Shown here: positions 57,580-58,906 of the stretch, in pieces
Position numbering within the stretch: the first letter of the stretch is position 1
How the letters are laid out: every line of letters starts with the position of its first letter
Translations under genes and position numbers: made by a program
DNA from: Burkholderiales bacterium
GTDB taxonomy: Bacteria; Pseudomonadota; Gammaproteobacteria; Burkholderiales; Casimicrobiaceae
Assembly: GCA_905339295.1 (NCBI GenBank)
Contig: CAJPFI010000009.1
Location: forward strand, 124,001 to 188,000
Direction: 5' to 3'
Length of the DNA: 64,000 nt
Notes under the pieces: generated by a model
What the model was told of the DNA's origin: nothing
What the model saw: only the letters and a program-made list of their open reading frames with translations
The model's database searches: none

Positions 57580-58182
57580 ATGTCCGCGCGCCGCACGTTC
57601 CTCGCCGCCCTCGCCCTCGCCACCGCCGCCGCGCTGGCGCTCGCGGCGTGCGGCCCCGACGCGCCGAAGTTCAAGGGGTCGGACGTCACCGGCAGCGCGT
57701 TCGGGCGCGACTTCGCGCTCGCCGACCACACCGGCAAGCCGCGCACGCTCGCGGACTACCGCGGCAAGGCGGTGGTCCTGTTCTTCGGCTACACGCAGTG
57801 CCCGGACGTGTGCCCGACGACGCTCGCGACGCTCGCCGAGGCGATGAAGCAGCTCGGCGCGGACGCGGATCGGGTGCAGGTGCTGTTCGCGACCGTCGAT
57901 CCGGAGCGCGACACGGCCGAGCTGCTCGCGCAATACGTTCCGGCGTTCGATTCGCGCTTCGCGGGCCTGCGCGGCGACGCCGCGGCGACCGAGGCGGTCG
58001 CGAAGGAGTTCCGCATCATCTTCCAGAAGGTGCCCGGCAGCACGCCGCAGACCTACACGGTCGACCACTCGGCCGGGATCTTCGTGTTCGACCCGGCGGG
58101 GCGGCTGCGCGTCTACGAGGGCCACGGCCAGGCGCCCGACGCGATCGCGCACGATCTGCGCGAGGTGCTGAAGTCGGGGTGA
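57580..58182 (+). CDS. SCO1/SenC-family copper chaperone lipoprotein
   Basis: A 200-residue protein. A lipobox (ALAAC, Cys24) suggests an inner- or outer-membrane-anchored lipoprotein. FFGYTQCPDVCPTTLATLAEAM has the copper ligands Cys74 and Cys78, and VDHSAGIFVFDPAG the third ligand His163. SCO proteins deliver copper to CuA of CoxB. The stop codon (58180-58182) lies at the edge of the first repeat element. Confidence 0.94.
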   Translation: MSARRTFLAALALATAAALALAACGPDAPKFKGSDVTGSAFGRDFALADHTGKPRTLADYRGKAVVLFFGYTQCPDVCPTTLATLAEAMKQLGADADRVQVLFATVDPERDTAELLAQYVPAFDSRFAGLRGDAAATEAVAKEFRIIFQKVPGSTPQTYTVDHSAGIFVFDPAGRLRVYEGHGQAPDAIAHDLREVLKSG

Positions 58183-58341
58183 AATCGGTCAATCGGGGTC
58201 AGAGCCGTAACATTCGCTCGAACCGACACTGTGAAATCGGGGTCAGAGCCGTAACATTCGTTCGAACCGACACAACGAGTTGTACTGTCGTCGCCGGCGA
58301 ATGTTACGGCTCTGACCCCGATTTCAGACCCCGATTTCACG
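58174..58341. repeat. palindromic repeat element 1 (between sco and gloA)
   Basis: Arms of 28 bp (58233-58260 and 58298-58325) are perfect inverted copies containing GGGGTCAGAGCCGTAACATT and enclose a 37-nt loop with its own small hairpin (ACAAC-GA-GTTGT). An extra direct copy (58195-58216) and trailing GACCCCGATTTC copies fill the rest. The structure is REP/BIME-like. No transposase is nearby. Confidence 0.9.
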
Positions 58342-58356
58342 GCTCCGACCCGGACT

Positions 58357-58740
58357 TCACGACTTCTCGATCAGCTCGATCTTGTAGCCGTCGGGGTCCT
58401 GAACGAACGCGATGACCGTCGTGCCGCCCTTGACCGGGCCGGCCTCGCGCGTGACGCTGCCGCCCTTCGCCCGCACCGCCTCGCACGCAGCCTTCGCGTC
58501 GTCGACCTCGATCGCGACGTGGCCGTAGGCGGTCCCGGGTTCGTAGCGATCCACGCCGTAGTTGTACGTGAGCTCGAGGACCGCGTGCTGCGACTCGTCG
58601 CCGTAGCCGACGAACGCCAGCGAGTAGCGCTGGTCGGGTCGGTCGGTCGTGCGGAGCACCCGCATGCCGAGCACGTTCGTGTAGAAGTCGACCGAGCGGG
58701 CGAGGTCGCCGACGCGGAGCATGGTGTGGAGGATGCGCAT
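58357..58740 (-). CDS. gloA: lactoylglutathione lyase (glyoxalase I)
   Basis: A 127-residue VOC metalloenzyme that isomerises the methylglyoxal-glutathione hemithioacetal to S-lactoylglutathione. The metal ligands appear at the same positions as in E. coli GloA: His5, Glu56, His74 and Glu122. [21 protein letters not shown] and YKIELIE are the conserved blocks. The numbering fixes the start at 58740. The repeat element immediately abuts this ATG (CAATTTCAC before it), leaving no Shine-Dalgarno. The gene lies alone between two repeat elements. Confidence 0.95.
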
Positions 58741-58906
58741 GTGAAATTGGGGTCTGAAATTGGGGTCGGTCTGAAATTGGGGTCAGAGCCGTAACATTTG
58801 AAATTGGGGTCAGAGCCGTAACATTCGCTCGATCCGACGCAACGAGCTGTACCGCTACCGCCGGCGAATGTTACGGCTCTGACCCCAATTTCAGACCCCA
58901 ATTTCA
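58741..58906. repeat. palindromic repeat element 2 (between gloA and rubredoxin)
   Basis: Homologous to element 1: 28-bp perfect arms (58800-58827 and 58865-58892) with the same 37-nt loop length, plus three further direct GAAATTGGGGTC copies at 58743, 58756 and 58773 and a second inverted copy at 58894. Where element 1 reads ATCGGGG/CCCCGAT, this one reads ATTGGGG/CCCCAAT on both arms. It fills the whole gap from the gloA start to just before the rubredoxin stop. Confidence 0.9.

Follow-up and report, generated by a model that had tools for sequence, protein, structure and literature searches.

How two long palindromes came to lie on either side of one gene, and why the two arms of each agree so exactly, is the question raised by the gloA locus in a 64,000-nucleotide stretch of DNA (the window; contig C9:124001-188000 of a draft genome of 4.03 Mb in 60 contigs). 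The gene itself (58357–58740, minus strand) encodes a lactoylglutathione lyase of 127 aa (TIGR00068, 171.7 bits at a cut-off of 120). Element 1 separates it from a convergent open reading frame on the plus strand (57580–58182), which we take to be a SCO1/SenC-type gene (sco); its stop lies beside element 1, and similar DNA adjoins gloA in relatives. Element 2 lies between gloA and a rubredoxin-like gene (58913–59065, minus strand), which was read from the sequence by eye and belongs to a segment conserved in relatives.

The two long hairpins flanking gloA are a real feature of the sequence. In element 1, perfect arms of 29 nt (58232–58260 and 58298–58326, 100% complementary) enclose a loop of 37 nt (58261–58297), as seen both in the inverted-repeat search and in the ssDNA fold, and in element 2, perfect arms of 30 nt (58799–58828 and 58864–58893, 100%) enclose 35 nt (58829–58863). 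An earlier note on this DNA had described 28-bp arms and an equal 37-nt loop, which was nearly right, the pairing extending slightly further. The left arm consists of the tag TGAAATC and GGGGTCAGAGCCGTAACATTCG in element 1, and of the tag TGAAATT and the core in element 2. Folded as ssDNA, each element forms a single long stem, with −43.9 kcal/mol for element 1 (58225–58345; z −9.76) and −52.5 kcal/mol for element 2 (58766–58907; z −12.08), and none of 200 shuffles was as stable in either case. An Rfam search of 57000–60000 returned four sub-threshold matches to microRNA precursors (29–38 bits against gathering thresholds of 95–100), which are artefacts of the long hairpins.

Nested partial arm copies, absent from the earlier note, lie outside both hairpins. 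Element 1 has an outer left copy with the tag AATC (58191–58229, 97% identical to 58235–58273) and a partial right copy (GACCCCGATTTCAC, 58327–58340). Element 2 has an extra left arm copy (58768–58798, 31 nt, 100% complementary to 58867–58897), outermost left partial units that adjoin the gloA start codon (58741–58767, 27 nt, 100% complementary to 58881–58907), and a partial right copy (58894–58907). The 20-mer GGGGTCAGAGCCGTAACATT occurs six times in the window, always within 58195–58886; 100 shuffles, with up to three mismatches permitted, gave 0.00 on average. When the two elements are aligned over 109 nt, they differ at 12 positions, nine of which fall on the loop side (positions 30–60), and the loop of element 2 holds most of the divergence. 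Two further differences form a matched pair, C/T at position 7 with G/A at position 89, which bears out the earlier claim of a matched arm change inside each palindrome. The last one, G/A at position 102, is the identical change in the outer tandem copy, the C/T difference being common to the inner arm pair and the outer right copy.

It had also been suggested that the pair may form a small unit carrying gloA. Two related elements do bracket one gene, and gloA does not have a fixed place in the genus: sco and the rubredoxin gene are neighbours with no gloA between them in G001, G006 and G013 (L059, L069 and L074), 54 nt apart in G006 and 56 nt in G013, and in G001, G013 and G015 the best match to gloA lies on a different contig. 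Against such a unit, the order sco–gloA–rubredoxin is kept without hairpins in G004, G018 and G020. The gap between sco and gloA is 65, 66 and 41 nt in these three genomes and 174 nt here; the gap between gloA and the rubredoxin gene is 55, 28 and 4 nt in the same genomes, 7 nt in G005 and 4 nt in G017, against 174 nt here when measured alike (values from these five genomes, minus-oriented loci left out). A query with the whole region yielded 29 loci in relatives, some spanning only part of it, and 28 of these lack even an 8-nt arm, while one has a single 8-mer and none a pair; in the relatives examined, the repeats are thus not found at this site, as the earlier note expected for some, rather than conserved there. 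Furthermore, the present gloA resembles the copies in G004, G018 and G020 (79–86%) about as much as sco (77–80%) and the rubredoxin gene (84–87%) do. As these three genomes keep the gene order without hairpins, the two insertions seem confined to this lineage, and gloA was probably not carried in with them. It is most likely a native host gene beside which two insertions landed, and a composite mobile unit in which the two elements move gloA together is very improbable.

In the stretch 58741–58912, element 2 immediately precedes the gloA start. Only 4–55 nt separate the rubredoxin gene from gloA in five relatives, so that the coupling of the two genes may have been altered here. From 16 sites of the present genome that were queried, 12 others could be followed in relatives (sites 7 and 13 with the left flank aligned only). 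Among the 34 relative stretches found, four have an 8-mer of the GGGGTCAG type, and one (G015, site 16) has a complete element. At the site C21:158644, the flanks of the 76-bp element are about 0.9–1 kb apart in G001 and G015, and DNA may therefore have been lost there.

Beyond the window, the 12-mer core GGGGTCAGAGCC has 64 exact copies in the 4.03 Mb, and its reversed control has none. The same genome has one gene for a Y1_Tnp (HUH) transposase (G000:C44:11569–12294, a 241-aa ORF), present in a single copy, which scores 44–46 bits against Pfam Y1_Tnp (cut-off 23) and 64.3 bits against NCBIfam REP_Tyr_transpos, below the cut-off of 80. Inverted copies of GGGGTCAGAGCCGTAACAAT bracket this gene at C44:11466 (+) and 12371 (−), and 13 of the 64 cores cluster around it (C44:3168–15949). 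The genome thus holds the palindromic family with other copies elsewhere, tied to a Y1/RAYT-like transposase, that the earlier note had anticipated. In an alignment of eight transposases, H60 and H62 (HxH) and Y120, presumably the catalytic residues, are invariant in all eight. None of the eight has a Pfam HTH match for a C-terminal domain at E values up to 1, and a phmmer search against solved structures gave no match at E values up to 0.1.

The kind of repeat is not the one first assumed. As in REP, BIME and REPIN families with their RAYT genes, the repeats are palindromic and scattered, and a single-copy Y1 transposase is flanked by inverted copies; the density also rises near the transposase gene, as the available text of one study describes for some genomes (PMC2817692). 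However, the assignment to REP/BIME elements did not hold: no GTAG tetranucleotide was seen by eye at the hairpin foot in the two folded window sequences, and each element has one long stem instead of paired short hairpins. A REPIN, which consists of two short inverted REP hairpins, does not agree with this single stem. The core GGGGTCAG instead fits GGGGWSAS, the motif of the terminal inverted repeats (TIRs) named together with the TIRYT genes in the accessible part of Di Nocera et al. 2013 (PMC3733652), and the family is therefore one of TIRYT-type terminal repeats and not of the GTAG type. As far as the accessible parts of that paper and of Quentin et al. 2018 (PMC6006769) go, TIR repeats and TIRtrons resemble our family in that a Y1 transposase gene lies between inverted repeats with GGGGWSAS, and in that the repeats are moderately abundant across the genome and occur as dimers and clusters; what sets our family apart is its many short hairpins without a gene, which have mirrored nested units and, on both sides of the core, matched tags specific to each element. 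The latter text assigns 20 of 26 TIRYTs to subclass 2.1, whose members have an HTH-like domain at the C-terminus; the eight aligned proteins here gave no Pfam match to such a domain. IS200/IS605 transposases likewise are Y1 HUH enzymes with HxH and Tyr, but classical IS200 enzymes are described there as shorter and as having short subterminal hairpins (PMC6006769, accessible part), in contrast to the 241-aa single-copy gene with long inverted repeats. A literature search for TIRYT and TIRtron found only these two papers, and a text search for the letters of the motif gave unrelated titles among the papers listed. The kind of repeat is thus already known, while the evolutionary pattern of matched tags was found nowhere described in the literature searched, as far as the texts available go.

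Among relatives, GGGGTCAGAGCCGTAA with at most one mismatch was found in 9 of 61 genomes searched and in 7 of 22 within the same genus, a distribution that undercounts other variants because the query is the core of the present genome. The matches number 127 in G012, 69 in the present genome, 49 in G018 and 23 in G016, and 12 or fewer in each of the other 18 genomes of the genus. PF01797 is present in 10 of the 22 genus genomes, and transposases of a clade marked by PRRPRF, assigned by eye, occur in the present genome, twice in G018, in G012 and once in G016, which are the four genomes with the most core matches. Identity to the present transposase is 62–65% for the three aligned PRRPRF members and 42–46% for the other four. 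Core matches also exist without this clade in G015 (8), G017 (12) and G004 (4). Within the fetched 1.5-kb flanks, GGGGTCAGA arms lie near 7 of the 14 Y1 loci of the genus, with none at the PRRPRF locus L089. Other transposase clades go with other repeats, namely GGGGTCAGACTC or GGGGTCAGAGTCG at L090, L092 and L094, and GGTGTCAGACAC at L088 in G001. Its presence, its clade and its proximity associate the transposase with the repeats, which it probably mobilises.

In G016, the PRRPRF-type transposase gene (L099, C7) is interrupted by TAG, and the genome still has its 23 repeat matches. G001 holds 179 exact copies of GGTGTCAGACAC; a frequent arrangement is a row of tandem 12-mers with inverted 12-mers after it (e.g., L119, L088 and L290–L309), and copies flank and partly overlap its Y1 transposase gene. 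In named genomes, an inverted GGGGWSAS pair lies within about 500 bp of 37 of 80 related transposase genes and is lacking at 43, these loci being the best 80 among the matches listed. At least five mirrored flank bases were counted in 7 of the 37 transposase units against 37 of 1332 cross pairs, a count that is biased upward, as the pair was picked to maximise matching.

The matched arms were analysed in 21 elements of the present genome (the isolated cores C6:27572 and C21:168523 were left out, and C40:105607 has no facing arm). Sixteen core positions are nearly invariant, with 333 of 336 matched. On the outer side (positions −8 to −1) 112 of 168 positions match between arms against a shuffled mean of 58, and on the inner side (16 to 23) 126 of 168 against 84, neither being reached in 5000 shuffles. 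Twenty elements from G012, G015, G016 and G018, a chosen subset of the matches (e.g., three clusters from the 127 in G012), behave alike, with 123 of 160 outer matches against 67 and 135 of 160 inner matches against 58 (0/5000 shuffles). For this set, L139, L141, L143 and L156 gave no facing pair, L146 and L152 fell outside the length limit, and L136 was unused. Thus, only the 16-nt core is fixed, and the flanks differ between elements and agree between the arms of one element.

The extent of this agreement varies. Nine of the 21 elements have at least five exact outer matches, compared with 0.2% of cross pairs within the genome, 12 have only 0–3 mirrored outer bases, and 7 of the 21 lie, in their outermost flanks, above the 95% point for cross pairs. 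The 12 elements of G018 all have at least five outer matches; since GACTTC is a frequent tag in that genome, 56% of its cross pairs reach this level too, yet the permutation still gives 1 in 20000. The outer tag of G018 is in part a signature of the whole genome and can therefore travel with the element. Outer-flank permutations on the elements of G012 (3), G015 (4) and G016 (3) taken separately were not significant.

Copies in the same orientation share these flanks as well. Within clusters of the present genome, they agree at 5.74 of the 7 nt of the outer tag, compared with 2.42 between clusters (0/2000 permutations), and inverted copies agree at 5.20 of 7. In the relatives, same-orientation sharing is 6.07 within against 2.90 between clusters, 6.11 against 3.11 without L157 and L159, and 5.33 against 2.90 when L153 is left out as well. 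Averaged per cluster, the values are 5.60 in the present genome (15 clusters, 12 at 5/7 or more) and 5.40 in the relatives (15 clusters, 11 at 5/7 or more); the tag is not common to every cluster, as 3 of 15 and 4 of 15, respectively, average below 5/7.

These values bear on the earlier proposal of either whole-hairpin copying or selection for pairing. Hairpins could be copied whole, with selection—by transposase recognition or by a role as RNA terminator or stabiliser—purging mispairs, so that matched changes would be compensatory mutations. The hairpins are indeed very stable, and between elements 1 and 2 the arms have changed at a single pair and the loop side at nine sites; moreover, the accessible parts of two papers describe compensatory changes in REPINs, together with tandem units that include flank (PMC3116915), and preserved palindromes in REPs flanking RAYT genes (PMC2817692). 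However, same-orientation copies are not pairing partners, and they share the tag to much the same degree as the inverted ones, 5.74 against 5.20 of 7, and the matched stretch takes in positions that have no conservation between elements. The matched changes themselves stand, but because copies in the same orientation also share their private flank, selection for pairing alone is insufficient, and we consider such a selective origin unlikely.

False mirror images could also arise if assembled contigs fold back at palindromes. The genomes are drafts, and two mirrored clusters of G012, L157 and L159, run to contig ends. By contrast, the window elements and the clusters used from the present genome are 1.2 kb or more away from the ends of their contigs, and each window element has different genes on its two sides. 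L158 of G012, which L157 and L159 resemble, is internal to a 38.8-kb contig and has three irregular nested units that are mirrored on its other side. The arm and tag results hold without L157 and L159: the remaining 18 elements of the relatives have 107 of 144 outer matches against 64 and 121 of 144 inner matches against 52, with 0/5000 shuffles reaching either. An assembly artefact is thus extremely unlikely.

Local copying is favoured, as it explains both the matched arms and the tags shared in the same orientation, and template switching at the hairpin would likely be its simplest route. On balance, we therefore lean towards a model in which MITE-like hairpins are spread by a TIRYT-type transposase, their arms are homogenised by template switching, and gloA is native. 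Elements 1 and 2 would be non-autonomous hairpin insertions of the GGGGTCAGAGCCGTAA terminal-repeat family, probably spread by the TIRYT-type Y1 (HUH) transposase encoded on C44, with which the repeats are associated; the 16-nt core would be the part most likely recognised by this enzyme. During replication, a stalled nascent 3′ end may fold back at the hairpin, copy its own arm and a few bases of the flank, and then return, which would leave perfect arms, a mirrored flank and possibly nested arm copies. The transposase would thus insert the hairpins, and replication would then homogenise and occasionally extend them. The mirrored irregular units of L158 are as foldback copying would leave them.

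The template-switch step is argued from quasipalindrome correction in E. coli. In the text available for two studies, template switching at imperfect inverted repeats makes them perfect in E. coli (PMC7202029), and hairpins are proposed to arise and persist through template switching (PMC8794818). The likeness lies in matched changes of both arms in a single event; the difference is that in these texts the correction is a mutation process and not the upkeep of a mobile family, for which we argue here from sequence patterns. Judged by titles and abstract openings, none of the papers listed by a search on RAYT, template switching, inverted duplication and related subjects joins these themes. The pairing of REP-like hairpins despite drift is often credited to selection, and a fixed core with private tags in inverted and direct copies is a natural record that can separate selection from copying. 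The family also offers a defined set of sites at which template switching in mobile hairpins can be tested.

Where the private tags come from is a separate matter. Self-primed foldback at insertion or replication might copy neighbouring DNA, sometimes host coding sequence, inverted to the other end, resulting in a private mirrored tag and a nested palindrome that grows outward; if true, mobile hairpins would have a novel means of gaining their ends. At C9:84315–84425 (L038), the left gene has a coding end, GGTGGCT, that G015 conserves, and an inverted copy of it adjoins the right arm, but the site also holds an older decayed arm, so that the case is imperfect. At site 16 of G001, a different repeat lies in a palindrome with perfect 36-bp arms, including GCCCCCTAG, which represents the last codons and the stop of the left gene. 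Across 25 sites of the GGTGTCAGACAC family in G001, mirrored flanks are not general (2.08 within against 1.73 between; six clusters without plus-to-minus order were left out of this count), and because the family as a whole lacks mirrored flanks, the 36-bp palindrome may be a native hairpin. With one imperfect case (C9:84315–84425) in its favour and the second repeat family of G001 against it, host capture is a tentative idea, possible but doubtful.

The reverse order of events would be insertion into existing host hairpins, such as terminators or riboswitch stems, with the mirrored outer sequence being the stem of the target. The palindrome of G001, from a family without mirrored flanks overall, would fit this, and an element of G018 (L149, at 158–238 of G018:C22:6800-7200) occupies the variable stem of a cobalamin riboswitch, and the riboswitch remains recognisable as RF00174 at 75.6 bits (gathering threshold 31.5). 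The corresponding riboswitch stretches of five relatives have no repeat element in this stem; in four of the five the stem is long but differs in sequence, and in G014 it is short and without the mirrored 12 bp. In addition, the tag recurs from one tandem copy to the next, as the stem of a target would not, and no site of the present genome was matched to a sufficiently close empty site. Pre-existing stems as the general source of the mirrored sequence therefore appear quite improbable.

One further property of the core concerns its coding potential. Read by eye in one frame, it ends in a stop (GGG TCA GAG CCG TAA, or GSEP-stop), and insertion of a core can thus supply a C-terminal tail and a stop codon to a gene. 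In G015 (L124), the right-hand gene ends in what looks, again by eye, like a decayed version of GSEP-stop, which may be compared with L038 of the present genome (C9:84315–84425).
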